From the NCBI RefSeq assembly GCF_017877135.1, contig NZ_JAGIPH010000010.1:124001-188000 (forward strand): 64,000 nucleotides of DNA. Direction: 5' to 3'. Below, one piece after another: positions 27,057-41,479 of this stretch (its first letter is position 1; every line of letters starts with the position of its first letter). The translations under genes were made by a program, and so were the position numbers. Under the pieces are notes generated by a model. That model searched no databases, was not told the origin of the DNA, and was given only the letters and a program-made list of their open reading frames with translations. This DNA comes from Neorhizobium galegae. GTDB taxonomy: Bacteria > Pseudomonadota > Alphaproteobacteria > Rhizobiales > Rhizobiaceae.

Positions 27057-27406
27057 GCAACCGCGAACATCCGGCAAACGCGCGAGGCGATCTGCCGGAA
27101 AGGCCCTTTCCACGGCAATGACGGAGAGGCCGCGGCCCGACCACGGCTCTCTCATTGCCCGCATTCGGCGGCGCGCCTTGCCTGAGGCCCTTGCCAAGTT
27201 CCCGCCGGTCTTCTTCCAGCGCGGCATCATAGACTATAGAACATGATGCAATTCAGAGCTTATCCGCTTACCGTTTATTTCGTATTTTGCTTATATATAT
27301 GTGTAGGCAATTGCATCGTGATGGTCGTCTCAGCAAGGTCTGGTTGCACAGGCGCTTCGGTGCTAGAACCTTCGGAGACCTGAGGGATGGCAGAAAAGCG
27401 CGCGCG
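27057..27406. other. Intergenic region after lacK
   Basis: 350 bp without a gene I can support. A strikingly A/T-rich patch at about 27236-27310 (including TATATATATG) is a plausible promoter for the GGDEF-EAL gene. I see no clear terminator hairpin for the lac operon. Confidence 0.4.
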
Positions 27407-29440
27407 ATGAGCATCCTGTTTGCGAAAAACCAGCTTTTGGACAAGGCCGAAGACGCCAGATCTTTCAAGAGGTGGCTCTATGTCAGCCTTGTGCGTCTGG
27501 CGTTTCGCAACAACTTCGCCAATATTACCGTCAATCTGGCCGCGGGCTTCGGTTTCGTCCTGATCATCTGGCCGTCCGAGGAGATGAGCGAGAGCTTTCT
27601 GGCGCAATGGCTGGTGGCGCTATCGGTGCTGTCGCTGGCGCGGCTGACGCATTCCTTCTTTGTCATCAAGCGCCTTCGGGACGAGCCCGACATCACCCAG
27701 GCCCAGTTGCGGCCGCACCTCTTTCTCTACGCCGCAGGCCTTCTGACGGCAGCCGGTCTGTGGGGGATCATCACGGCCTCGACCGTGCTTGCGGGACATG
27801 AGGAAAGCCGGCATGCGGCGCTTGTCATCATTCCGGCACTTGCGGCCGGCGCAACCGGCATTCTGGCGTCGCAACGGGTGATCGGCCGCATCTATATTTC
27901 GGTGATGCTGCTTCAGGGCTCACTCGCCCTTGCCCTTGCCAGGGAGCCGGAACACCTGATGGCGGTCTTGGGCGTCATCTTCACCATCGTGATGCTGATT
28001 GCACACCGCAACAATCATCAGGTTCTCAGACAGAGTTTCGAGCTGCAGTTTCGCAACAATGATCTCGTCGAGAAGCTTGAGGCTGAACGCAGCCTTTTGG
28101 AAAACCTCAACGCCACTCTGGAAGCACGGGTGCGCCAGCGCACGGCGGAATTGAAGGAACTGGCGGCGCAGGATCCTCTGACCCGCGTTCTCAACCGCAG
28201 CGGCCTGATGCAATGGTGCGCCGAGCAGGAGGAAAGCGTCAGTGCGTCGGCCGGCTTTGCGGCGATCTTCATCGATCTCGACCGTTTCAAGCAGATCAAT
28301 GACGGCCTGGGCCATACGGTTGGTGATATCGTGCTGGTGGAAGTGGCAAGGCGGCTGGATCGGGCACTTGGGGCCCATGGCGCCCTGGGCCGTTGGGGTG
28401 GCGACGAGTTCGTGGCCATTGTCCGCACACCGCAGGAGCGTCCGGAAGACTGGAGCTGCACGCTGGTGGACCGCATGCGCGCGGCGGTGGAGGAGCCGAT
28501 TGCTGTTGCCGGGCGCCAGCTGCAGGTAGGCTTCAGCGCCGGCGTCGCCGCGACCGGCAGCGACCGCCTCCGAGTAACGGACGCCATTCACTGTGCCGAT
28601 CTCGCCGCCGGCGATGCCAAGCGCAAGGGGCGCGGCGTTACCCAGATCTACCGCAAGACGCTGCTGGCCGAGCAGGAGCGCAATCTGGCCCTTGTCCAGG
28701 CCCTCAAGCAGGCCATTGCCAATCGTGAGTTTTCGGTGGTGTTCCAGCCGGTGGTTCAGGCGGGTTCCCATGCGGTGCATAGCCATGAGGTGCTGCTGCG
28801 CTGGAACAATCCGGATTACGGTCTGGTCAGTCCCGACGAATTCATTCCGATTGCCGAAGATACGGGCGAGATCGTAACGATTGGCGCCTTTGTGCTGGAC
28901 ACAGCGCTGCGCGAGATCGCCCGAACGGCCGATCCTGATGGTCCGCGCCGCCTTGCTGTCAACGTGTCGCTTCGCCAGTTGATCGCCCCGGGCTTTTTCG
29001 AGGTAGTCCGCTCCACGCTGGAGCGCCATCAGGCGCGGCCGGAGGATCTCGTTCTGGAGGTGACGGAATCCATTTTCGATACGCGCCGGCAGTCGATCAT
29101 CAAGGCAGTCCTGCTTGAACTGCATCTTTATGGCGTCGAAATCCATATCGACGATTTCGGCACCGGCTATTCGTCGCTGTCACGCCTGCATGAAATGCCG
29201 GTGCAGGCGCTGAAGATCGACAGGTCTTTCGTCCAGGCGCTCGACAGCCATGGCCACGCCATCATCGAGGGAACCGCTCTCATTGCCCGAAAGCTCGGGA
29301 TTGCCATCGTGGCGGAAGGTGTCGAGACAGCACAGCAGGTGGCTGAGCTCGAAGCGCTCGGCATCGACTATCTGCAGGGCTATTTCTTCGGAAGACCAAG
29401 CCCGGCCCTCGCACGTCCCCCGCAGTCGAAAAGCGCCTGA
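27407..29440 (+). CDS. Membrane-anchored GGDEF-EAL protein (cyclic-di-GMP turnover)
   Basis: A 677-residue protein. The N-terminal ~200 residues contain about five or six membrane helices; a short coiled segment (about 212-252) leads into a GGDEF domain with intact GGDEF at 331-335, then an EAL domain. The EAL motif reads EVL (461-463, in HEVLLRW), but the other catalytic blocks are present: NVSLRQL, LEVTES, IDDFGTGYSSL, LKIDRSFV, EGVETAQQ. Phosphodiesterase activity is therefore likely and cyclase activity possible. No RxxD inhibitory site sits before GGDEF. The frame opens 40 codons earlier, but the ATG at 27407 directly precedes the membrane domain. Confidence 0.88.
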   Translation: MSILFAKNQLLDKAEDARSFKRWLYVSLVRLAFRNNFANITVNLAAGFGFVLIIWPSEEMSESFLAQWLVALSVLSLARLTHSFFVIKRLRDEPDITQAQLRPHLFLYAAGLLTAAGLWGIITASTVLAGHEESRHAALVIIPALAAGATGILASQRVIGRIYISVMLLQGSLALALAREPEHLMAVLGVIFTIVMLIAHRNNHQVLRQSFELQFRNNDLVEKLEAERSLLENLNATLEARVRQRTAELKELAAQDPLTRVLNRSGLMQWCAEQEESVSASAGFAAIFIDLDRFKQINDGLGHTVGDIVLVEVARRLDRALGAHGALGRWGGDEFVAIVRTPQERPEDWSCTLVDRMRAAVEEPIAVAGRQLQVGFSAGVAATGSDRLRVTDAIHCADLAAGDAKRKGRGVTQIYRKTLLAEQERNLALVQALKQAIANREFSVVFQPVVQAGSHAVHSHEVLLRWNNPDYGLVSPDEFIPIAEDTGEIVTIGAFVLDTALREIARTADPDGPRRLAVNVSLRQLIAPGFFEVVRSTLERHQARPEDLVLEVTESIFDTRRQSIIKAVLLELHLYGVEIHIDDFGTGYSSLSRLHEMPVQALKIDRSFVQALDSHGHAIIEGTALIARKLGIAIVAEGVETAQQVAELEALGIDYLQGYFFGRPSPALARPPQSKSA

Positions 29441-29491
29441 TGGCGTATAGCGACACGCCGAAACTGCTGCCTGACAGGCGTTGAGCCGGCG

Positions 29492-30454
29492 TCAGGCCGG
29501 GTTCCGGCTTCCGGAGAAGGCCCCGCGGAACCAGGCCCATCCGCCCTCGCCTGTCTTCTTGCGCCGGTAAAGCGCCTGATCGGCATAGCGCATCAGGGTC
29601 TGCAGATCGCCGGCATCCTGAGGGTAACAGCTGATACCAAGGCTTGCCCCGACGGATAGCTGCTTCGCCTCCCAAGTGAAGGGCTGCGAAAGTGCACTGC
29701 AGATGCGCCGAGACACCAGCTCGGCCTCGGCGCCTGAGGTGAGCCCCGGCAGCAAAACCGCGAATTCGTCGCCCCCCAGCCGAGAGATGATGCCCGTTGG
29801 CGGCACGACCGCCCGCAGGCGCGTTGCAACCGTCTTCAGTACCTCGTCGCCGGCATCGTGACCAAACTTGTCGTTGATCGATTTGAACCGGTCGAGGTCG
29901 ATCAGCAGGACGGCGATGGACAGGGACGGATGGCTTTCATGCCAGCGCAGCTCGAAATGCCAGCGATCGCTCAGTGCCCGCCGGTTGGCAAGCTCGGTCA
30001 GCGGATCCTCCAGCGCGATACGCCGAAGGGCATGTTCCACAGCCTTGCACTGGGAGATGTCTTCGAACGTCGCAATCGCGATGCCCTCGTAACGGTCGAC
30101 CGTGCCACGGTGGAGCGTGGTGACGATCGTGCCATCGGCGCAGCGCAGATCAAGCTCGATGCCGGAGCTTGCCGCATTGCCTAGGCTGTTACCGTTGCGC
30201 AGGTTTTGCCAGAGGATCCGCGCGCGATGGCGCTGCTCCGGATGGCAGCAGGCTGCATCCAGCCATTGCTCCACCGACGTGAAGCAGCCATCCAGAGTGC
30301 CGAACTTATCGGTGAAGGCATGATTGGCGGAACGGACATTGAAATCCTTCAGCGAGGCCCAGAAGAGCGCAATCGGCGCCGCATCGAGAACCGTGCGAAG
30401 TTCCCGACGGTTGGGCTCCACCTGCAGATCTGTGGTCTCCATCACGTGCATCAT
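29492..30454 (-). CDS. PAS-GGDEF diguanylate cyclase
   Basis: A 320-residue soluble protein. Residues 15-140 form a PAS-like sensor (LRTVLDAAPIALFWASLKDFNVRSANHAF...), then a GGDEF domain with DPLTELANRRAL, LIDLDRFKSINDKFGH and the active GGDEF at 227-231. No RxxD feedback site is seen. GGAGAAGAG precedes the ATG. It is convergent with the GGDEF-EAL gene (51 bp between stops), so a putative synthase and hydrolase of cyclic-di-GMP lie side by side. Confidence 0.88.
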   Translation of the reverse strand: MMHVMETTDLQVEPNRRELRTVLDAAPIALFWASLKDFNVRSANHAFTDKFGTLDGCFTSVEQWLDAACCHPEQRHRARILWQNLRNGNSLGNAASSGIELDLRCADGTIVTTLHRGTVDRYEGIAIATFEDISQCKAVEHALRRIALEDPLTELANRRALSDRWHFELRWHESHPSLSIAVLLIDLDRFKSINDKFGHDAGDEVLKTVATRLRAVVPPTGIISRLGGDEFAVLLPGLTSGAEAELVSRRICSALSQPFTWEAKQLSVGASLGISCYPQDAGDLQTLMRYADQALYRRKKTGEGGWAWFRGAFSGSRNPA

Positions 30455-30617
30455 GCTCTTCTCCGACCTGCCGTTCCTTTACCACCGCACCAGGGAGCCT
30501 GCGGCTCTTGGCGCGTGAGCAAGGTTGGAACGGTGCCACCCCGTTTGAAGGAGCAGATCCTGGAGGCGTGATCTGCTGCTTCGAGAAGAGAAGAACATGG
30601 CAGGCGTCACGCGGGCG

Positions 30618-31748
30618 TCACACCGCAGTCGCGCCGTCTGGAAGGGATGACGATGACCCTGTCTTCAGCCTTTGCAGCACTTTTGCGCTGCAGCGCAGGG
30701 CGCCGTTGCGGCTGGCGAGATGGCTCCAGCCGGAAACACCGATCACCTCGAAGCCAAGATCCTGCCAGAGATGCCGGTTGGCCTCGTCGTAAGCGGACAG
30801 CGCCTCGATATCACCAAAGTGCGGCAGCCAGACGAGCGGCTTTTCCCGCCCCTTGCGCACCACGTTTTCAAGGAGGACATTGTTGTAAAGCCGCGCCAGT
30901 CTCTTGCCGCTATCCGGCGTCACGGCAAAGGGCACCGGGTTGCGGATGACGGCAAAGCCCTGGCGCTCCAGAGAGACGGCAGAGGCATCGAGCTGACTCC
31001 GCGCCTGTTCGACCAGCCGGCTTTCACCGCCACCTTCAAGGCATGGCTCGGCCACCAGAAGCAGCGGACGGGCGTTCTGCGAAAGGCCGGTTACCGAGAC
31101 GAACTGGTCCACATGAAAACCCGGCTGGTGCAGCCGCCCGCCGCCCGCCGCCCGGTAGCCGAACAGGTGGACGGGCCGATCGTCCAGCGTTTCGAGGAGA
31201 CCAAGGTCGGCCGGTGCAGCACTCTCCGGCGGGGGGCTTGAAAGCCCGTTGCGCTCGAGGCTTGCCGCGCCGACGATCCGAAAATTCTCGCCCACCAGCT
31301 GGTTTCCGCCATCAAGGTCCAGCGTCACCGAAACGCTCTTCCAGCCGAGAGAGCGGGCAAGGGTCGGGCCAATGGCCGTGCCGGCACGGCTTAAGATTTC
31401 GCCTCCCGACAGGTGGTTACCCGCATGGTCGCGCACATGAAAGAGATCCTGCATCCAGGGGCTCTGGCGCGCGCTTTCCGGCATATCGAGCGGCACCAGC
31501 GTCACCGACACCGCAAGAGGCAGTGTCGCCAACCACCGCTCCGCCTCTGCAAGCCGCTGGCGATCCACGACCAGAAAAAGCGCGATCCCAGCCGGAAACG
31601 CCGCGATGAGATTGCCGATCGGAGCCAAAGGCCGGCTCCAGCGATCAAAGCTCTCCCCACCGAAGAAGGCGGAAGGGAGGGAAATGCCCAGCTTTTCGAT
31701 CAAACCGCCACAATCGGCAAGCAGGCGGGCTGGCGGCACCTGTGACAT
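30618..31748 (-). CDS. Protein-arginine-deiminase-like enzyme of the YcaO/TfuA operon
   Basis: A 376-residue cytoplasmic protein not matching common housekeeping families. Spaced motifs resemble the guanidino-modifying superfamily and especially protein-arginine deiminases: PWMQDLFHV (W98, D101; compare WMQDE in PAD enzymes), LDGGNQLVG (145-153), FHVDQFVSV (H212, D214; compare HVDEF) and a late cysteine in NGALRCSAKV (C353) in the position expected for the nucleophile. These would supply the Asp-His-Asp-Cys site that converts arginine to citrulline. The ATG at 31748 overlaps the tfuA stop by one base (TGATG); the longer frame upstream lies inside tfuA. The link to YcaO/TfuA suggests a peptide or protein substrate; arginine deimination is inferred from motifs only. 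Confidence 0.62.
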   Translation of the reverse strand: MSQVPPARLLADCGGLIEKLGISLPSAFFGGESFDRWSRPLAPIGNLIAAFPAGIALFLVVDRQRLAEAERWLATLPLAVSVTLVPLDMPESARQSPWMQDLFHVRDHAGNHLSGGEILSRAGTAIGPTLARSLGWKSVSVTLDLDGGNQLVGENFRIVGAASLERNGLSSPPPESAAPADLGLLETLDDRPVHLFGYRAAGGGRLHQPGFHVDQFVSVTGLSQNARPLLLVAEPCLEGGGESRLVEQARSQLDASAVSLERQGFAVIRNPVPFAVTPDSGKRLARLYNNVLLENVVRKGREKPLVWLPHFGDIEALSAYDEANRHLWQDLGFEVIGVSGWSHLASRNGALRCSAKVLQRLKTGSSSSLPDGATAV

Positions 31749-32464
31749 CAGGTACGGCTCCCACTTTGTTGGCGCGAGAGAAGGCTGCGGAAGAACAACG
31801 TGTGCTGAAACCGCCAGGTGCCGGCGGGCGGGGCACAAAGGGTCCCGTCCTGAAGGAGGTTCAGCAAGGCGACCGCATCCGCCTGTTTGACCGAAAAGGC
31901 GTTCCCCGCAAGCCGGTCGGCCATCTCCATCGCAAAACCGCCTTCCCGGGCAATGGCGCGCCAGGTGCGCCTTGAAAAATGCAGCCGGCATGCGGCGGCC
32001 ATCAGCCGTGCGTGATCGTCTTCGCCAAGGGTGTCCGCAAGCCTGTCGATGGTGGCTTGGGCGTCCACGAGGGCAAGGGTCAGCGGCCGGTAGGCGAGAT
32101 CGGCAGGGGCATGTGACAGCGCCACATCCGCATCGCTGACGCGGCGGCCATCGCGGTAGTCTTCAAAAACCCTGCCGATGCCGGTCATGCCGAAGGCTTC
32201 GCATTCGGCAGCGCGCAGCGCCCCCATGCTGGCCGCGCCGATGACTGCAACGCCCTTCGACAGGGCAAACAGGATTTCCTTGTGCCAGACGGCGGCGCAA
32301 TCGCCATAGAGCCCGTCGATCAGACCGATCACCTGCGCGCCATCGTGCACGGCCGACAAAAGATCGCCGCAGGCCGAAGACCCGCGAAAGACAAGCCCCG
32401 CAAAGGAGGAAAGATCAAGGCCATGTATCGAAGGCCCGGCAAACACCACCGTATGGCACGTCAC
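31748..32464 (-). CDS. tfuA: TfuA-like protein, YcaO partner
   Basis: A 238-residue protein with the TfuA core: an N-terminal Rossmann-like part (TVVFAGPSIHG), VIGLIDGLYGDCAAVWHKEILFALSKGVAVIGAASMGALRAAE, and the following GMTGIGRVFEDYRDGRRVSDADVAL. In thioamide-forming systems TfuA works with YcaO to place sulfur in the peptide backbone, probably by delivering sulfide. The start is GTG, overlapping the ycaO stop by four bases (GTGA), and the stop overlaps the next gene by one base. This coupling shows that YcaO, TfuA and the deiminase-like enzyme are made together. Confidence 0.85.
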   Translation of the reverse strand: MTCHTVVFAGPSIHGLDLSSFAGLVFRGSSACGDLLSAVHDGAQVIGLIDGLYGDCAAVWHKEILFALSKGVAVIGAASMGALRAAECEAFGMTGIGRVFEDYRDGRRVSDADVALSHAPADLAYRPLTLALVDAQATIDRLADTLGEDDHARLMAAACRLHFSRRTWRAIAREGGFAMEMADRLAGNAFSVKQADAVALLNLLQDGTLCAPPAGTWRFQHTLFFRSLLSRQQSGSRT

Positions 32465-33678
32465 GATTTCAAAAACCCGCTGAGCGTATTCAGGGAAAGC
32501 CGGTTGAGGCCCGCATTGCCGGCCGAAAGTCCATCCGCAAGCACTCTTGCGACATGGATGCCGGGTGTGCCGGTATCCAGCGGAAAGACGTAGAGATCGC
32601 GAATGCCGACATCAAACAGGTGTCTGGCGAGCCGTCGCCACACCGGGCCCTGCCCGCCACCGGCTGAAAGATCAAGCTTTGGCGGGAACCCGACCCCTTT
32701 TCCGGCTGGCGCGACATTGCTGAAACGGGCCGAAAAATCCGGCCGGTAGCGTTCCGGCGACAGATCGTCGCGCGCACCGCTGATATCGGTGAGGCGTGAC
32801 TGGATCGCTTCCAGAAGGGCGGCAAGGGCGGCCTCCAGCGGGTCAAGCCGGCAAGCAATGCCGGCGGAATGGCGCTGACCGGGGCCATCGTCCGACATCA
32901 GCGGCCGCTCGATGCCGGCCAGAATGACCGGCACGCCGGTTGCGCCGGTGAGGTCGAAGAAGCCCACCTGAAGTTTCTGGCTCTCAAGCCGCGCCAGCAG
33001 GTCGTCGAGAGGCTGGAACTGACCCGGTGAAACGGACAAGGGCCGCATGCCGAGCGCACGGCTTTCGAACGTGTCGATCAGCACGCAGGCATCATGCTCC
33101 ACCAGTTCCAGCAGCGCATGCAGGACGACGCGGTCTTCGTCAAAACCGGCCGCCAGCCCGTGCGATGTCATCTGGAAGGCCTGGCGATCCCAGGGAAAAT
33201 CGGCGCGAAAATCCATGCCGACCAGTTCATAGGGCGCATAGACCGGCCGATTGTCACGCGCGGAAAATCCCTTGACCCAGGCGCGAGCACGGCCTGCATC
33301 GAAATGATCATGGGTGATGCGGGCCATGCGCTCCAACGGCATCGGGCAGAGGCCGCGCGCGACAAGTGCCTCGGGCGTGCCCTGCTCGGCAATATGACGC
33401 CCGGTCTCTTCAGCCACCGCCCCCTCGATCGCCTCCATCACGGCCGACAGCTTTGCCTGCCGCACGCTCAAGCCCTTGCCCTGCGCCACCGAAAGACCCC
33501 GGGAATTGGGCCGCACCGCAAACCATACCGGCACGCCGATCACGTCCAGATCCGTCACATCCCCGACCCGGGTAATCCCGAACCGCCTGAGCAGTTCGGG
33601 ATCATCCAGAAGCGTGGCGGACAGATCGGGCGCGCCGTTGGCATTCAGTTCGGCAACGGGTGTCCGCTCAGTCGGCAC
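32461..33678 (-). CDS. YcaO-domain ATP-dependent cyclodehydratase/thioamidation enzyme
   Basis: A 405-residue YcaO protein. ATP/Mg-binding residues are visible in the standard three blocks: E82 and E85 in VMEAIEGAV, E191 and E194-H195 in LLELVEHDA, and E290, Q293, R295 in LLEAIQSRLTDISGARDD. YcaO enzymes activate a peptide amide oxygen with ATP to give azolines, amidines or, with TfuA, thioamides. The C-terminus (LSLNTLSGFLKS) lacks the PxPxP ending of azoline-forming members, fitting a TfuA-dependent type. The GTG start is 3 bp after the stop of the 143-residue gene. No separate E1-like partner is nearby. Confidence 0.88.
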   Translation of the reverse strand: MPTERTPVAELNANGAPDLSATLLDDPELLRRFGITRVGDVTDLDVIGVPVWFAVRPNSRGLSVAQGKGLSVRQAKLSAVMEAIEGAVAEETGRHIAEQGTPEALVARGLCPMPLERMARITHDHFDAGRARAWVKGFSARDNRPVYAPYELVGMDFRADFPWDRQAFQMTSHGLAAGFDEDRVVLHALLELVEHDACVLIDTFESRALGMRPLSVSPGQFQPLDDLLARLESQKLQVGFFDLTGATGVPVILAGIERPLMSDDGPGQRHSAGIACRLDPLEAALAALLEAIQSRLTDISGARDDLSPERYRPDFSARFSNVAPAGKGVGFPPKLDLSAGGGQGPVWRRLARHLFDVGIRDLYVFPLDTGTPGIHVARVLADGLSAGNAGLNRLSLNTLSGFLKS

Positions 33679-33681
33679 GGA

Positions 33682-34113
33682 TCACGGCGTGGTGTTTGGC
33701 GTGTCGGACAGGATGGCGTCGAAGAGGTCGCCAGTGGTCGCACCGCTCGGGCCAACGGCCATCAGCGGGTTTTCGATCGGCAGGCGAATGTCGCGGTTGG
33801 TGTCCCACCCGGTATCGACGACAGTGCCGACCAAAGCAAAATCAGCTTCGGAGATGACGGCGCCGCCCGCAATCAAGGCTTCAACACCCTGGATCTGCAC
33901 CTGATCCAGCGACGTTTCGGCCTGGCCATCCTGGCTTGCCAGCATGCCTTTGGCGGCAGCGGCAATGCGGGCATAGCCATCGACGCCCGGATGGCTTGTT
34001 TCATAATCCACGATGGTCTGATGCGAAACCTGCGCCACGCGCAGCGGCTCGGTGCGTAAGAAAATGACGCCGTCGCCCTTTTTACCGATGATATAGAGTT
34101 TGGAGCTGGTCAT
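33682..34113 (-). CDS. 143-residue protein of unknown family, candidate substrate of the YcaO/TfuA/deiminase set
   Basis: No family recognised. It begins MTSSKLYIIGKKGDGVIF, has no signal peptide or membrane helix, no cysteine, and an alanine/glycine-rich middle. The C-terminal ~26 residues are low in complexity and rich in Thr/Ser/Gly/Pro (VGPSGATTGD, then SDTPNTTP). It lies 9 bp after the regulator gene with AAGGAG before its ATG, and 3 bp before ycaO. RiPP precursors often sit exactly here, next to their YcaO, but 143 residues is long for one; it might instead be a modified effector protein or an accessory factor. The substrate role is a hypothesis. Confidence 0.6.
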   Translation of the reverse strand: MTSSKLYIIGKKGDGVIFLRTEPLRVAQVSHQTIVDYETSHPGVDGYARIAAAAKGMLASQDGQAETSLDQVQIQGVEALIAGGAVISEADFALVGTVVDTGWDTNRDIRLPIENPLMAVGPSGATTGDLFDAILSDTPNTTP

Positions 34114-34122
34114 GTGTTCTCC

Positions 34123-36075
34123 TTAAGGAAGGCCTGCCGTTCGGAAGGCGTGATAAAATCGTTCATTGATTGCGGGATCGCGGTTCGGCGATAACCCGCT
34201 GATGTCCCTTGCACTCATGCCCGGGTACATGTCCTGAAGCCGCAAGCCGCACTGGCGTGCCGCCTCAAGATCTCCATTGAGAGCCAGGCTTGCCGTCAGC
34301 ACCCGCAGGGCTGGCTCGTCATTTTCCATGCGCCGGCACAGCTGAACCGCCTCGCCATAGGCTTCCCGCTTGAACGCAATGCTGGCGCCCGCCCACCAAT
34401 AGATGTCGGGGGCGATCGGGTTGAGGTCGATGGCCTGCTGGAAGCGGGGCCAGGCGGCGTCCGGCTGGCCGAAATGCGCGAGCGCATCGGCGTGCTGCAG
34501 GAGCAGGTCGGCGGAGTTGGGGGCAAGCGCTTCGGCCTCGAAAAAACGCTGGGCGGATGTGTCGAAATCGCGCCGGTAAAGGGCAACGACGGCGCACATC
34601 CAGTGACCCATGCCGGAAGCCGGATCGATGTCGAGCGAGGCTTCCGCCTCGGCCTTTGCCCGGTGAAGAAGATGCGGATCGCCGCCGCCCAGCATCAGCC
34701 ATTCCAGTTGCAGGGTCTGAGCGATGCGGGCGCGCGCCGTTGCCATGCGTCCATCGAGCTCCACGGCCCTGCGAAATTCCGCCCGGGCGCGCCGCAGCGA
34801 CGGCAGGTCGCACTTGCCGCGCAACAGATGCTGGCCGGCCAGCAGCCGCTGATAGGCATTGGCATCATGGGCGCGAAACGGATCCACCTGCAAACGCTCG
34901 ATCTGTTCGGCAAGCGCTGCGGCAATCTGTTTCGACAGAAGGCGAAAGGCGGCATGCACCTGCTCGGCATCCAGCGCCACTTCCAGTGCCCAGACCACCT
35001 CCGCCGTCTCCTCTTCGATCAGCGATATCGACAGGCGCGTCGGCTCGATAAGGGTGGAACGGACGCGGTAATCGGCGCGCAGGGATTGGTAGAGCCTACC
35101 CGAGGCATCCTCGGCAGAAGCAAAGCTGCTGTGCGGCGCAAGCACGGTAAATGTACGATAGCGCACCAGACTGTTTGCGACATCCTCGACAAAGGCATGG
35201 GCGATGGGAAAGGAGGCGGTGCCGGCCTGCAGTGTGACCGGCGGCAGGAAAGCCACGCGGGGCTTGCGCACCGCCTTTTCCGGCGCGGCTGCCGGTTTTT
35301 CCTCGGCGGCCGGTGCGGCATAGCTTCGGTTTCGCCGCTGCAGCGCAAGCGTTGCCGGTTCCGGGTTTCGCCCTTCCAGCTGCAATTGCCGGGTGAGCAT
35401 CTGAAAGATCCGGTCGCTCGCGGCAATGTCGCCGGCGCGCGCATAGGCCGCCATCAGGGCGCGAAACGTCTCCTCCCGCTCCGGCTCCAGTCTCAGCGCG
35501 ACATCGGCAAGGGCCGCAATAGCCGTGGTCTTCGCCCCCCCGAAGCGGGTGAGATCTTCGAGCGCCGAGCCCAGGGCGGAAAAGAACAGGTCCTTCAGCC
35601 GCTGTCGCTCCGAGACCAGCCAGAGGTAAAATTGCTCCTGGTTCTCCTCAAGCCCGGCCAGCAGTTCGCCATCCACGCTGCAGAGCGCCTGCAGGCGCAA
35701 GCCGACATCCTCCGATCTCAGCGCCGAGAGGAAGAAGGCCAGATCGGATTTTTGCGCCAGCACGCCGGCGCTGAGCCCCGTCGGCGTGCCGGTGACGAAC
35801 GCCCCGTCCGCCGTTGCCAGCGGCTGCAGCCGCGACAGCAGTTGCCGCAGATTTCCAAGCGCCCGCTTCTGATCCGCCTCTTCCCACAAGAGGGCCGCCG
35901 CTGCCTGCCGGGTCAGAAAGAAGCCGGGAGAAAGCAGAAGCGCTGCAACCAGGACAAACCCCTTTGCGGGAAAAAATGCCTGCCCCTCGGTCTCGCAGCG
36001 CGGCGTCCCGAACAGCCGGATGAATGGTTTGCCTTCGTCGCCGTTCAAGAACCCACCCCTCGTGGTTGCCGACAT
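34123..36075 (-). CDS. SARP/BTAD-type regulator with TolB-like and TPR regions
   Basis: A 650-residue cytoplasmic protein. Residues about 15-95 resemble a winged-helix domain (FIRLFGTPRCETEG..., ALLWEEADQKRALGNLRQLLSRL), followed by a bacterial transcriptional activation domain with TPR helices (about 100-250). An alanine/proline linker leads to a TolB-like alpha/beta region (PRVAFLPPVTL... about 280-405), then C-terminal TPRs (about 410-620). This architecture is used in rhizobial SARP-like regulators and adenylate-cyclase-associated proteins. It heads the operon with the 143-residue protein, YcaO, TfuA and the deiminase-like enzyme, so it probably controls it. GGGAG precedes the ATG. Confidence 0.72.
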   Translation of the reverse strand: MSATTRGGFLNGDEGKPFIRLFGTPRCETEGQAFFPAKGFVLVAALLLSPGFFLTRQAAAALLWEEADQKRALGNLRQLLSRLQPLATADGAFVTGTPTGLSAGVLAQKSDLAFFLSALRSEDVGLRLQALCSVDGELLAGLEENQEQFYLWLVSERQRLKDLFFSALGSALEDLTRFGGAKTTAIAALADVALRLEPEREETFRALMAAYARAGDIAASDRIFQMLTRQLQLEGRNPEPATLALQRRNRSYAAPAAEEKPAAAPEKAVRKPRVAFLPPVTLQAGTASFPIAHAFVEDVANSLVRYRTFTVLAPHSSFASAEDASGRLYQSLRADYRVRSTLIEPTRLSISLIEEETAEVVWALEVALDAEQVHAAFRLLSKQIAAALAEQIERLQVDPFRAHDANAYQRLLAGQHLLRGKCDLPSLRRARAEFRRAVELDGRMATARARIAQTLQLEWLMLGGGDPHLLHRAKAEAEASLDIDPASGMGHWMCAVVALYRRDFDTSAQRFFEAEALAPNSADLLLQHADALAHFGQPDAAWPRFQQAIDLNPIAPDIYWWAGASIAFKREAYGEAVQLCRRMENDEPALRVLTASLALNGDLEAARQCGLRLQDMYPGMSARDISGLSPNRDPAINERFYHAFRTAGLP

Positions 36076-36212
36076 TTCGCCACTCCCGCGACATCGAACG
36101 AGATAATGCCCCGTATTTGACGCCGGTGTGACGCCGTTTGTCGCATGATTCTCCCGAAGTTAAATAGCAGGGGAGCCCGCCCGGACATCATTCTTCCGGT
36201 CAAATAGAAACG

Positions 36213-36710
36213 ATGCACCGCATGACATTCAATTCTTCTTATGTACAATTTTCTTCTTACACTGAACCCTACCAGCGCGCCGATGATGTCGGCTTCGCCA
36301 TTACCGAGTTCATGTGGTTCAAAGGCTATCCATTCTACGCAATCGGTGCGCTGACTGAAGCAAAGGTTGCTTATGCGAGACTTGCGCAAGGGGCATTCGA
36401 GGAGACGGACCAGGATAATGTCGATCTCGTCTTCCGCATGAGCCAAACCGGCGGTGGTTATTTCTTCGAACTGGTGCTGCGGTCGGACAAGGGCACCGCC
36501 TATGGGGGCTGGCTCTGGGGTGAAAACCTGGAGGTGACGGACGAATTCATCAACGGCTACCGGGTGCTTGCCACAACCCATGCCGCCGGCAGGACCCATT
36601 TCGCCTATAGCCGCCGGCGGCGCGGATACCAGTGCATCGGCCGCCCGCCCGTCGACAAGGCATCGCTGGTCATGCCGCGCAGGACACGTGGATTCGATGC
36701 CGACGCATGA
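36213..36710 (+). CDS. Hypothetical 165-residue protein
   Basis: No family recognised. Aromatic-rich, apparently soluble and mostly beta (YVQFSSYTEPYQRADDVGFAITEFMWFKGYPFYAIGAL; GGGYFFELVLRSDKGTAYGGWLWG), ending in a basic tail (YSRRRRGYQ...PRRTRGF). It is divergent from the BTAD regulator with a 137-bp gap and followed by 362 bp before the amine oxidase. The in-frame ATG at 36222 is an alternative start. The 5' end is A/T-richer than the neighbours, which may indicate later acquisition. Confidence 0.55.
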   Translation: MHRMTFNSSYVQFSSYTEPYQRADDVGFAITEFMWFKGYPFYAIGALTEAKVAYARLAQGAFEETDQDNVDLVFRMSQTGGGYFFELVLRSDKGTAYGGWLWGENLEVTDEFINGYRVLATTHAAGRTHFAYSRRRRGYQCIGRPPVDKASLVMPRRTRGFDADA

Positions 36711-36850: not shown

Positions 36851-37072
36851 CAATCATGTCATGCCTTGCCCCCTCTGCCGGCCTTATCCGCCAGCGGCAT
36901 TGGGAGCCCGTGTCTATCGCCAACGCCATTCGAGCAGACAACTCGATGCGGCCTGGCGTTCGCTTTTACCAATAGCCAGCAGACTGCGTTTCCAGCGATT
37001 TTTTTGCGCGCGAAATGCAGAACACCTTGTTCCGCTTTACGATTTTTCACCATGCCTCGGAGGAAAACTGGG

Positions 37073-38959
37073 ATGAGATCTTCATGGACACGCCGTACAC
37101 TTTTGCGCAGCATGACGGCCCTTGCGGGCAGTCTGTTTGCGCCGCCGCTTCTCTCCGGCCTTGGCCAGGCGCAGGCCGCCTATAGGACAACCCGTCCGGA
37201 TCTTCCCGCAGACTTCGGTCGCGGAAGGAGCGTCGCCATTGTCGGCGCTGGGGTAGCCGGGCTCACATCGGCCCTCAGGCTGGCCAATGCCGGCTTCAAG
37301 GTCGTGGTGTTTGAGGCAGACAGCCGCTATGGCGGGCGCAGCCTGACCGCCCGTCCGTCCAACGAAGCCTACCGCAAATGGTGGTTCAAGAAATATCCCG
37401 GAACCGATCAGTTTCCGGCCATGTATGCGGATCGTTACCAGGAGGTGGCGACAAGCCCTGCCCCAGATCTTCAGATCTGCGAATTCATGGATGATGACTG
37501 GAAGCCCGAGTCAGGGCGCGATCCGGTGGAACTGTTTCTGAATGCCGGGCCAGGGCGCATCCCGTCCAACCACGTCAATCTCATCGCGCTCTGCCAGGAG
37601 ATCGGCGTGGCGCTCGAGCCCTATTTCTTCCAGTCCATGTCCAACCTCATTCAAAGCCAGACTTTTGACAACGGCAAGCCCATCAGCTTTGCCCAGGTGA
37701 CCTACAGTCTCTATGCCGAAATGGCGCAGATGATGTACCAGGTGGCCCGCGAGGGGATCAAACTGAAGGGCAACCCAGGCGCCGAAGAAACGAAAGCGCT
37801 GGAGAACCTCTACCAGTTGTTCGGCAACCTTAGCAGCAGCGGCGACATCCAGCCGAATTCGCGGCTCGGATACACGCATCTGCCAGGCGGTTGGCGCGAT
37901 AGCGGCACGCTGCGTGACAGCGTCCCCCTCGACAAGATCCTGTCCTCCGGCTTCATCGGCGATGCCGACGCCAATCCGGAACTGTCGCCGGGATCGTTTC
38001 TGTTCAACGGCTTCAACATCGACTGGCAGCCGTCGCTGATGCAGCCGATCGGGGGCATGGACCGAATCTGGCAGCAATTGCTGCTGCAGGATGTGCCGAA
38101 AACGGCGATCTGGAACGAAAGCCTGCAGCCGGTCGCCGGCGCCGGCGCCAAGGTTGGCAACCTCGTTCTCCTGAATACGGCCGTCACCGGCATTGCGCCC
38201 AGCAGCAGCGGCGTCAGCCTGCGCGTCAACCCTTCCAATGCCACGGGAGAGACGGGCGTCCAGCAACACGAATTCGACTTCTGCATCTCCACGACCGCCC
38301 CCTCCCTTCTCAACCGCATCCTGGTGAAGGAAGGCCTGCCGCGGGCCTTCATCAACGGGCTGGACGCATTTTCGGTCCAGGGGGAATGGGGCGATGACGA
38401 TCCCACACCCAATCTGTGGACACCGGCGATCAAGGTTGGATGGCAGGGCAAGAGCCGCTTCTGGGAAACCGAAGATGAGATCTATGGCGGCATTTCCTGG
38501 ACCACCGACATCATCGGCCAGATCTGGTACCCGTCGGAGGATTTCACCGCCCATACCGGCATCCTGACCGGCGCCTACAATCGCGGTACGCCGGCTGTCA
38601 CCTATGCGCGCCAGGGCAATGTGGAGCGTATCGCCACGGCGCGGCACGGCCTCGGGCTTCTCCATCCGGAGGCAAAGGAGGAGGTTTACCGGGGCCTGTC
38701 GATCGCTTGGCAATATATGCCGAACCAGGTCGGCGGCTGGGCGTCCGATACGGCAAGCACGTCGCCGAACGTCTATCGGGAGATCACGACATTCGACCCG
38801 TCGGGCCGCTTCTTCTGCGCCGGCGACACTTGGAGCTACTGGCCCGGATGGCAGGAAGGCGCCGTTGCATCGGCCTATTGCGCGATCGCCGCGATCGCGC
38901 ACAGCATTGAGCCGCTCAACTGCCTCGACTGCGGATGCTTTTCAGGCATGAAGGGCTGA
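37073..38959 (+). CDS. Tat-exported FAD-dependent amine oxidase
   Basis: A 628-residue flavoprotein. The N-terminus has a twin-arginine signal (TRRTLLRSM, hydrophobic stretch, AQA cleavage site near residue 36). The dinucleotide-binding loop is VAIVGAGVAGLTSALRLANAGFKVVVFEAD (GAGVAG 58-63), followed by RYGGRS, the amine-oxidase GGR motif. A C-terminal FAD block reads FFCAGDTWSYWPGWQEGAVASAY. It should oxidise an amine or amino acid in the periplasm, releasing H2O2 and an aldehyde or keto acid; the substrate cannot be read from sequence. The ATG at 37073 follows GGAGGAAAA; earlier starts lack this. Confidence 0.82.
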   Translation: MRSSWTRRTLLRSMTALAGSLFAPPLLSGLGQAQAAYRTTRPDLPADFGRGRSVAIVGAGVAGLTSALRLANAGFKVVVFEADSRYGGRSLTARPSNEAYRKWWFKKYPGTDQFPAMYADRYQEVATSPAPDLQICEFMDDDWKPESGRDPVELFLNAGPGRIPSNHVNLIALCQEIGVALEPYFFQSMSNLIQSQTFDNGKPISFAQVTYSLYAEMAQMMYQVAREGIKLKGNPGAEETKALENLYQLFGNLSSSGDIQPNSRLGYTHLPGGWRDSGTLRDSVPLDKILSSGFIGDADANPELSPGSFLFNGFNIDWQPSLMQPIGGMDRIWQQLLLQDVPKTAIWNESLQPVAGAGAKVGNLVLLNTAVTGIAPSSSGVSLRVNPSNATGETGVQQHEFDFCISTTAPSLLNRILVKEGLPRAFINGLDAFSVQGEWGDDDPTPNLWTPAIKVGWQGKSRFWETEDEIYGGISWTTDIIGQIWYPSEDFTAHTGILTGAYNRGTPAVTYARQGNVERIATARHGLGLLHPEAKEEVYRGLSIAWQYMPNQVGGWASDTASTSPNVYREITTFDPSGRFFCAGDTWSYWPGWQEGAVASAYCAIAAIAHSIEPLNCLDCGCFSGMKG

Positions 38960-39816: not shown

Positions 39817-41331
39817 CTATTCGGCCGCGGGCTGGCCAAGGGCGGCAATCTGCTCGCCCGGATGATGATCGTCTCTTCCCATCTCCTCTGCGAGGCGCCT
39901 CTGCCGGGCAGAGTGAAACTGGCGCTTCTGCTGATACATGGCCGCATCGGCCCGCCGCACCACGGCTTCGATCTTTTCACCCTGCTCGCTGGTGGCGATA
40001 CCGAGCGCGATGCTGAGCGGTGCGTTCGAGTAGAACTGGTTGTTGATCTTCAACAGCTCCTGAATCGTGTCAGCCATGGCCGCCGCTGCGGCCCGGTCGG
40101 CACCCGGCATCAGGATGGCAAATTCGTCGCCACCAATGCGGGCGACGTGGTTCGGCCGCGTCACGGCACCGTTCAGCACTTCGCCGATCCGTCGCAGCAG
40201 GGCATCGCCCGCATCGTGGCCCAGCGTGTCATTGGTGTCCTTCAACCCGTTGAGGTCAATCACGAGGATAGAGACCGGCCTCAGCGGCTTGCGCTCCATG
40301 CGGTTCATTTCATCGACATAGAAGGCGCGATTATGCAGTTTGGTCAGCACATCGTGCTTGCCGAGATATTCGAGATAGGCTTCCGCCTTCTTGCGCGCCG
40401 TGATGTCGGTGAGCGCCACCTGCACCAGCGACCAGTCGTCTTCGTGGCCCGGAAGCACGGAAAACTGCATCAGGACATAGCGCTCGGACCCGTCGAGCGC
40501 ATAATTGACCACCTCGCGCTGGTGGAAGAGATTGTTGTTCCACAGCTCCACCAGCTGTTCGCGAAAATGCTTTTCCATCTCATCGCGGAAAATATCGCCG
40601 AGCCGCTGCAACAGCGTCTGGCGGTCGGGCGCACAGAACAGATCGAGCGTCGACTGATTGACCGTGATGACGCGGATCTCGCTCATGCACTGGCGCACGA
40701 ACTCCGGATGCACGTCGGTGAACACGCGAAAATCGGCAATGCCCTGCGCGCGCACATCCTCAAGCATGGTGCGGATACGGCTGAAATCCTCGACCCACAG
40801 CGACACCGGCGAGTGTTCGAAGATCCCTTCGGCATATTGACGGTTCGACAGTTCACGGCGGCGGGCATCCTCGCGCTCCGTCACGTCTTCCGTCGTCAGC
40901 AGAAGCCGGTCGAGCGTTTGCTCATGGCCCGGCAAGACGGCACCGCGCAGCTGTATATCCAGACGCCGGCCCGACAGCGTGTAATTGACCGCACTGCCGA
41001 AAAACTCCTTATGCCCATCGAACAGAGCGGAAAGCTCGTTGATGTGGCTTTCCAGCATGTCGTCCCGGAAGACGCGGTCGATATTAGCAACCAGATGCGC
41101 CTGGCTTTCGGCCCCGAAGAGCTCGAGCGTCTTTCGATTGACCTCCAGCACGCGGATCTTGGAGGCGCAGAGCGCCACGCGCGACAGATCCGCCCGCAGG
41201 AAACGGCGGATGTCGGTCACCCCCTCGCGACGCCAGACGTCGAATTGAGCGGCAACGCCGCTGAAATCCTCGATCCACATGGCAATAGGCGCGAGATCGA
41301 AAACATCGGCACCGCTATTGTTGTCCATCAT
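39817..41331 (-). CDS. Tandem-PAS diguanylate cyclase
   Basis: A 504-residue soluble protein with two PAS-like domains that are clearly copies of each other: FDLAPIAMWIEDFS...DRVFRDDM and FEHSPVSLWVEDFS...GDIFRDEM, exactly 160 residues apart. They precede a GGDEF domain with HDVLTKLHNRAF, VIDLNGLKDTNDTLGHD and the active motif IGGDEF (400-404). No RxxD inhibitory site is visible. Of several possible starts, the ATG at 41331 (MMDNNSG) has GAGGG shortly upstream. Probably makes cyclic-di-GMP in response to an unknown cytoplasmic signal. Confidence 0.86.
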   Translation of the reverse strand: MMDNNSGADVFDLAPIAMWIEDFSGVAAQFDVWRREGVTDIRRFLRADLSRVALCASKIRVLEVNRKTLELFGAESQAHLVANIDRVFRDDMLESHINELSALFDGHKEFFGSAVNYTLSGRRLDIQLRGAVLPGHEQTLDRLLLTTEDVTEREDARRRELSNRQYAEGIFEHSPVSLWVEDFSRIRTMLEDVRAQGIADFRVFTDVHPEFVRQCMSEIRVITVNQSTLDLFCAPDRQTLLQRLGDIFRDEMEKHFREQLVELWNNNLFHQREVVNYALDGSERYVLMQFSVLPGHEDDWSLVQVALTDITARKKAEAYLEYLGKHDVLTKLHNRAFYVDEMNRMERKPLRPVSILVIDLNGLKDTNDTLGHDAGDALLRRIGEVLNGAVTRPNHVARIGGDEFAILMPGADRAAAAAMADTIQELLKINNQFYSNAPLSIALGIATSEQGEKIEAVVRRADAAMYQQKRQFHSARQRRLAEEMGRDDHHPGEQIAALGQPAAE

Positions 41332-41479
41332 GCGCCCTCGCATAGCCTCTTGCGGCCAGTCCATAGAACGAATCCACCCCGCGGTCATTCAAATCTGGAA
41401 TAGAATGAGACACCTGTCGAACTTTTTTAGCAGGTCCTTGACTTCGGCCAAGGATGCGCCGGCGTCTGATGTCCTGTGA

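Follow-up and report, generated by a model that had tools for sequence, protein, structure and literature searches.

A conserved YcaO–TfuA cassette with a deiminase-like enzyme in Neorhizobium galegae and its candidate peptide substrate

Introduction

What would a YcaO enzyme, its TfuA partner and a deiminase-like enzyme make together when they are encoded in a single operon? The question is raised by a locus of Neorhizobium galegae (assembly GCF_017877135.1), found in a stretch of 64,000 nucleotides that spans positions 124,001 to 188,000 of contig NZ_JAGIPH010000010.1 and is referred to here, at its full length, as the window. Five minus-strand genes occupy 30618..36075 of the window, with spacings of 9, 3, -4 and -1 bp according to both the open reading frame coordinates and the sequence itself, and encode in turn a BTAD/TPR regulator, a small protein of 143 residues (SP143), YcaO, TfuA and the deiminase-like enzyme (DEIM). 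A preliminary description of the window, made from its letters alone, had recorded this layout correctly and had taken the five genes to be a self-contained system that modifies one peptide or protein, with SP143 as the candidate. From comparison of related sequences we favour, on balance, a pathway of the type that yields ribosomally synthesised and post-translationally modified peptides (RiPPs), whose product would carry both a thioamide and a citrulline.

A conserved gene set

The cassette is a real, conserved unit of bacteria that live in soil or with plants. When named genomes were scanned with a DEIM profile, 28 loci emerged, assigned to Rhizobium, Agrobacterium, Neorhizobium, Ciceribacter, Xaviernesmea or less closely named bins, and in all 28 the order SP143–YcaO–TfuA–DEIM is kept on one strand; the regulator is also present in 27, the sequence of the remaining locus (L027; loci and genomes are cited by their L and G labels) beginning after the regulator position. 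Full but diverged sets occur elsewhere, at L066, L068 and L119–L123, and of these L066, L068 and L119–L121, each with all five genes, lie outside the family of the window. The preliminary description had let its reading hang on the association persisting in related genomes, and it does persist.

The spread of the set is patchy. A DEIM match was obtained in 12 of 150 genomes, a sample with which the 28 named loci overlap in part, in 7 of 397 genomes of the order and in 5 of 385 of the class, the genome of the window being included in each count. Among the 12 matches, the one in G014 (L012/L026) has a frame unlike the family, was judged to be chance and was dropped, as was the locus in G114 (L025), cut by a contig end; L127 (G982), where tblastn found no cassette gene, was also set aside. 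Incomplete or altered arrangements are seen at L024, where regulator, YcaO, TfuA and DEIM are present and another small gene takes the SP143 position, in G467, where contig ends divide the cassette and YcaO and TfuA face a portion of DEIM, and at L067 (G255), which holds a lone DEIM homolog. The reverse search, from SP143, found it in 6 of 247 genomes of the family, the window's own included, with DEIM adjacent in all six; these are the window and L122–L126, three of which (L124–L126) also belong to the named-locus set. DEIM adjoins SP143 at every SP143 locus examined (28/28 named loci, L066, L068 and L119–L126), and the DEIM-linked set is an enzyme set without curated models.

SP143 as candidate substrate

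SP143 is encoded at 33682..34113 on the minus strand as the second gene of the cassette, and very probably is the substrate of the set. It gave no Pfam or NCBIfam match at E up to 0.1 and none in PHROGs; five SP143 proteins and two products of the sixth gene described below gave nothing useful against Pfam at E up to 10, and the 15 matches of an SP143 profile to PDB (best E 0.049, mainly haemocyanin and 14-3-3) were judged to be chance. By our own reading of its borders, the protein divides into a leader-like region (residues ~1–89), a core-like stretch (~90–122; 33748..33846, minus strand) that holds GWDTNR, and a conserved tail (~123–143).

The core-like stretch stands out in two relatives, Rhizobium straminoryzae (L017/L028) and Rhizobium sp. 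CSW-27 (L018/L029), in which two SP143 genes follow the regulator. The second of these encodes a single leader-like region with several core units in series behind it, five in L028 and four in L029 at the protein level, spaced by 47 and then 37 residues and each retaining GWDxNR, while the arginine codons vary synonymously (CGA, CGG, CGC). At the DNA level, four units of L028 recur at spacings of 141, 111 and 111 nt and are 65–78% identical to the first, and three units group together in L029; the last, more diverged unit of both loci was added by motif. As these multi-core precursors lie in relatives, they were invisible from the sequence of the window alone. Together with the 28/28 loci, they give SP143, as far as its sequence goes, the leader and core organisation by which precursors of YcaO–TfuA RiPPs are recognised.

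The second line of evidence is a single residue. The SP143 set comprises 41 sequences, 39 of them unique, and the 37 single-core ones were aligned. Position 107 is arginine in 37/37, or in 36/36 with L024 left out of the safe count, its arginine being placed differently in two alignments. Position 103 is tryptophan in 34 and tyrosine in 2 of the 36 precursors and P112 is kept in 36/36; Cys, Ser and Thr are absent from the core residues kept throughout (W/Y103, R107 and P112). Arginines elsewhere in the window protein vary, with R20 kept in 29, R25 in 30 and R49 in 25 of 37; position 110 is mostly Gln (23/37), and S88, directly ahead of the core, is kept in 34/37. The Arg107 codon, computed from the gene start at 34113 and checked in the sequence, lies at 33793..33795 on the minus strand and marks the proposed site of deimination. 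The main reason for regarding SP143 as the substrate and R107 as the target is that the multiplied unit and the sole never-changing arginine coincide, which supports the earlier proposal of one gene-encoded substrate.

Variants of the small gene were also observed. In L123 (G1204) two diverged SP143 copies lie in tandem between regulator and YcaO, with Tyr instead of Trp103 and the arginine kept. The different small genes that precede YcaO at L070:293-589 (the split G467 set, outside the SP143 counts) and L024:11161-11589 both encode a ‘GVSLA’ stretch, whose Gly is followed, by eye, by an Arg 18 residues later; a second precursor type is possible.

YcaO and TfuA

The YcaO and TfuA identities of the preliminary description hold up well against Pfam. 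YcaO (32461..33678, minus strand; 405 residues, GTG start) matches PF02624 at 2.1e-48, the sole such match in the genome, and TfuA (31748..32464, minus strand; 238 residues) matches PF07812 at 1.7e-39. The TfuA gene starts with GTG in a GTGA overlap, so that the two genes adjoin with a 4-bp overlap in the window, and they are adjacent in 28/28 named loci. The best NCBIfam model for YcaO is TIGR03266 (McrA-glycine thioamidation; 4.9e-37, 127.8 of the 365 bits needed) and its nearest solved structure MJ1094 (6pe3, E 8.9e-19), and TfuA scores best with NF033432, the TfuA-related McrA-glycine thioamidation protein (4.1e-44, 150.5 of the 235.2 bits needed). A thioamide is the probable product of the pair because both proteins score best, though below cut-off, with the two partners of McrA-glycine thioamidation.

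The deiminase-like enzyme

DEIM (30618..31748, minus strand; 376 residues, ATG within TGATG) had been called arginine-deiminase-like from its motifs. Ten columns, among others, are invariant in 18/18 aligned sequences (W98, D101, G147, G148, H212, D214, N289, N290, G349 and C353), and the motifs W..D, GG, HxD, NN and G..C, which we take to be the catalytic motifs of deiminases, place the Asp (D101), the His-x-Asp (H212/D214) and the C-terminal Cys (C353) in the expected order in all 18. Against PDB, a 13-sequence DEIM profile returned DDAH1 in 8 of 9 matches (best E 0.025) and an 18-sequence profile in 8 of 8 (best E 0.0088); three matches of a 9-sequence profile were judged to be chance, and phmmer searches of PDB with DEIM and with a lone relative gave nothing useful.

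Profile-to-profile comparison points the same way. By hhalign the 18-sequence DEIM alignment matched the agmatine deiminases of PF04371 with a score of 27.5 over 278 columns (E 0.011). The best of 40 column-shuffled versions scored 17.6, and the best of the other controls (the reversed set and the profiles of regulator, YcaO and TfuA) 19.9, none of them extending past 61 columns. Smaller DEIM profiles scored 24.0 and 26.4 (E 0.035 and 0.017) over 282–284 columns. For the later comparisons the agmatine-deiminase set was trimmed to rows of 331–449 residues, about 23 sequences. A plasmid-borne relative from Paenibacillus, 25% identical to DEIM, itself matches PF04371 at E 0.0014 with 18.4 bits, the cut-off being 25. 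The copy in R. daejeonense is annotated ‘agmatine deiminase family protein’, and those in N. sp. NCHU2750 and Paenibacillus ‘hypothetical protein’.

Curated models do not reach this family. The window DEIM has no Pfam or NCBIfam match at E up to 0.1, seven DEIM-family proteins searched against Pfam at E up to 10 gave no match to PF04371 or PF03068, and three relatives gave none in NCBIfam. PF03068 itself had no match in 60 genomes and one in 299, below cut-off, at L103, which was dropped as it reads as a chorismate-binding enzyme. The motifs and profile comparisons support placing DEIM, at superfamily level only, in the superfamily that modifies guanidino groups, whose members have a five-bladed alpha/beta propeller fold; judged by sequence, its family is a branch of the deiminase superfamily that is at present unmodelled. 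The earlier label thus stands for the superfamily, with no curated family cut-off passed, and the similarity to DDAH1 and agmatine deiminases speaks against membership of an unrelated family, on which the preliminary description would have foundered. That DEIM deiminates R107 seems to us fairly likely, a claim inferred from the superfamily of the enzyme and the invariant arginine.

Two relatives outside the cassette may be mentioned here. L067:8590-10095 (G255) encodes a protein of 501 residues in which His precedes the catalytic Cys, and its surroundings show no convincing cassette gene. L104:9746-11062, on plasmid pPPM1a of Paenibacillus polymyxa, adjoins a gene for a DNA/RNA non-specific endonuclease, and neither YcaO nor TfuA is among its annotated neighbours.

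Regulator, proposed operator and a sixth gene

The first gene of the cassette (34123..36075, minus strand) encodes a SARP-like regulator of 650 residues, for which Pfam BTAD gives 1.5e-11 (45.3 bits against a cut-off of 22.1), in agreement with the earlier assignment; its TPR matches are below cut-off, as is a weak match to the HilA/EilA family (1.3e-4). SARP regulators bind direct repeats of 11-bp pitch. A repeat of this pitch, CGTCA-N6-CGTCA (CGTCACACCGGCGTCAA), lies in the divergent promoter gap at 36117..36133 on the minus strand and is proposed as the regulator's operator. Among the 28 near loci (the window and 27 others), 23 have its exact form upstream of the regulator, as do none of the 7 diverged ones, and the number rises to 25 of the 28 if C or T is allowed as the first base of each half. 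The background is 61 exact occurrences, these operators among them, when the two strands of the 28 loci are counted together (1,132,222 bases). For the longer form GCGTCAC-N4-GCGTCAAA, the site described here is the sole exact one of the 5.2-Mb genome, and three sites carry one mismatch. A one-mismatch copy of the repeat at 30605-30621 on the plus strand, at the end of DEIM, is near chance expectation.

Across this gap, at 36213..36710 on the plus strand, lies a sixth gene (UP) that encodes an orphan of 165 residues with no Pfam match. It accompanies the cassette in L066, L106 and 27 of the 28 named loci (the sequence of L027 stops short of this side); in L042 it lies ~1.5 kb away. By contrast, tblastn did not find it at L024, L068 and L119–L123. 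Its product may serve in regulation, immunity or maturation. The earlier five-gene account is incomplete: the five genes are conserved as described, and the divergent sixth gene and the operator had been missed.

Proposed pathway

In the pathway that we propose, the regulator would bind the direct repeat of 11-bp pitch in the divergent promoter, activating both its own operon and gene 6. SP143 would serve as precursor: its N-terminal region would provide recognition, and its core, around W103-x-x-x-R107-x4-P112, would be followed by the conserved tail. YcaO, with TfuA, would activate a backbone amide in or near the core and replace its oxygen by sulfur to form a thioamide, as may be expected from the family, and DEIM would hydrolyse the guanidinium of R107 to leave citrulline, a step suggested by its superfamily, the invariance of R107 and the 28/28 linkage. 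Any final trimming or export would use enzymes outside the five genes.

Several observations weigh against this pathway. DEIM passes no curated family cut-off in Pfam or NCBIfam, and its alignment to DDAH1 is weak (E 0.0088) and covers the N-terminal half only, with the Asp and GG motifs. The hhalign probability for DEIM and the agmatine deiminases is 3.7%, and a YcaO control profile comes close in score to the smaller DEIM profiles (21.1 and 21.0), but over 32–33 columns; the near DEIM set alone shows no deiminase similarity (E 0.62), which is seen once distant relatives are joined (E 0.0034 with a 32-row set that includes misread short rows). Directly ahead of the catalytic Cys, 15 of the 16 aligned cassette enzymes have Arg and that of L024 has Asn, whereas both lone relatives, and also the split G467 set, have His, so the specificity of DEIM may differ. 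YcaO and TfuA both score under the NCBIfam cut-offs of the thioamidation equivalogs. SP143, for its part, does not follow the habit (not rule) of RiPP precursors to diverge faster: its identity is higher than that of DEIM in all 276 locus pairs compared, and higher than that of YcaO in 266; such conservation would fit a lasting protein substrate as well, and the invariance of R107 could be structural instead. No protease or dedicated exporter was seen among the five genes or noticed in the flank genes common to most loci; genes of ABC-transporter type, which may act in export, lie further out in some loci.

Alternative explanations

The last of these points bear on what SP143 is. It may be a folded small protein that stays whole, its action adjusted by the two modifications, with no peptide released, an explanation that we hold to be unlikely and that nevertheless stays a serious rival to the RiPP reading because SP143 is highly conserved and neither protease nor dedicated exporter was seen. 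Median pairwise identities over 24 of the 28 loci, four having been dropped for truncated or misread starts, are 71.8% for SP143, 64.0% for the regulator, 59.3% for TfuA, 56.8% for YcaO and 46.1% for DEIM; the tail conserved after the core is in keeping with a persistent protein, and so are the protein substrates of other YcaO enzymes, ribosomal protein uL16 and methyl-coenzyme M reductase, according to PMC13063428. What such a protein accommodates poorly is the multiplication of the core alone, fivefold and fourfold behind one leader, a habit of precursors that is hard to reconcile with one fold. A little less probable is a division of labour in which only YcaO and TfuA modify SP143, while DEIM carries out amidino transfer, chemistry on free small guanidines or self-protection. 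The guanidino superfamily also includes amidinotransferases and small-molecule enzymes, and the similarity of DEIM is at superfamily level; the enzyme has the lowest median identity of the five, one relative stands alone in G255 and another beside the endonuclease gene in Paenibacillus. Set against this are its place beside SP143 at every SP143 locus examined and the presence in SP143 of exactly one invariant arginine, which is repeated with each core unit.

Doubt of a lesser kind attaches to the YcaO product, for which we consider an azoline or amidine in place of the thioamide improbable. YcaO enzymes yield several products (as PMC13063428 sets out), the scores of both proteins fall below the equivalog cut-offs, and S88 is kept just ahead of the core; but TfuA is present, both proteins best match the McrA thioamidation pair, and the core residues kept in 36/36 offer none of the Cys, Ser or Thr that an azoline needs. 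As for the suspicion that these genes are chance neighbours or a decayed locus, to which the patchy spread of DEIM (12/150 genomes) might lend itself, we give it almost no credence: the frames are open, the spacing tight and the operator conserved, and the order kept in 28/28 loci, together with the diverged full sets, refutes it.

Relation to known systems

Thioamidated YcaO–TfuA RiPPs (thioviridamide-like compounds, thiovarsolin, thiopeptides) resemble the RiPP-type pathway favoured here in their adjacent ycaO and tfuA genes and small gene-encoded substrate, and differ from it in that the pair is here constantly accompanied by a deiminase-like gene and a BTAD/TPR regulator. The survey of such RiPPs in PMC8120280 counts >500 clusters in Rhizobium, among which this locus type may be present unnamed; the words deiminase, amidinotransferase and multi-core are absent from its main text, and its sections 11–13 describe no such set. 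The std cluster of Streptomyces thermodiastaticus (PMC13174530) likewise unites a YcaO–TfuA thioamide and a ureido residue on one core, the latter being homocitrulline, which a NodU-like enzyme makes by carbamoylating lysine before an MNIO acts; as stated there, that cluster encodes no peptidylarginine deiminase. In citrulassins (PMC12971885) a peptidylarginine deiminase converts Arg to citrulline in a RiPP, as is proposed here, on a lasso scaffold and from a gene outside the cluster, whereas here the gene shares an operon with YcaO and TfuA. The pairing of YcaO–TfuA and deiminase edits was not found described, nor was any paper on YcaO with agmatine deiminase, in the open-licence literature, in which absence is not proof.

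The enzymes can be set beside their nearest relatives in the same manner. The McrA-glycine thioamidation pair (TIGR03266/NF033432; MJ1094) provides the best NCBIfam models and the nearest solved YcaO, unlike which the cassette proteins fall below both cut-offs and have SP143, not McrA, as proposed substrate. DDAH, agmatine deiminase/PAD_porph (PF04371) and PAD (PF03068) share with DEIM the motifs W..D, GG, HxD, NN and G..C in one order, all of which line up with agmatine deiminases and the first two also with DDAH1; unlike these families, no scanned cassette enzyme matches a Pfam or NCBIfam model. PMC13063428 argues that the precursors of RiPPs generally evolve more quickly than the enzymes acting on them. 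In other reports touching on TfuA, one thioamitide is made in PMC9576775, the available text of which does not mention deiminase, two genome papers list an undescribed ‘TfuA-related’ cluster in Rhizobiaceae, and PMC8939145, as far as its available text goes, mentions TfuA only beside ATP-grasp enzymes.

Genomic surroundings

Around the cassette the window offers a few further observations. Genes with GGDEF-type domains lie on both sides (27287-30454 and 39817-41388), identified by Pfam for 29492-30454 and read from translations for the others. A flavin amine oxidase gene (36866-38959, plus strand; PF01593, 8.2e-23) adjoins gene 6 and was not noticed among the conserved flank genes of the named loci. 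In 24 of the 28 named loci a gene of XRE helix-turn-helix type follows DEIM (for example L030:11244-11666), often with a protein of ~97 residues after it; no such gene was found in the window or at L027, L028, L029 or L031. Base composition is uninformative as to a foreign origin (GC 0.642 in the cassette, 0.622 in the window), an idea that was set aside, and promoter and terminator scans at the cassette were close to chance level.

Implications

If the pathway is as proposed, it would be the first case known to us of a deiminase inside a RiPP operon working with YcaO–TfuA. More tentatively, at a level of belief that falls a little short of even, we suggest a new RiPP class spread across several families of the bacterial class to which the window belongs, in which a peptidyl-arginine deiminase within the cluster would join YcaO–TfuA on a W-x3-R-x4-P core to place citrulline next to a thioamide, and in which the precursors, with one, four or five cores, would be near-constant because they yield a conserved peptide that acts as a signal or like a cofactor, not as an antibiotic. 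The prediction comes down to a single residue, R107 to citrulline, that can be read by mass spectrometry, and the multi-core relatives would be ready substrates with several copies of the site. SP143 would likewise be a precursor family that genome-mining tools can use, and the DEIM set would define an unmodelled branch of the deiminase superfamily.

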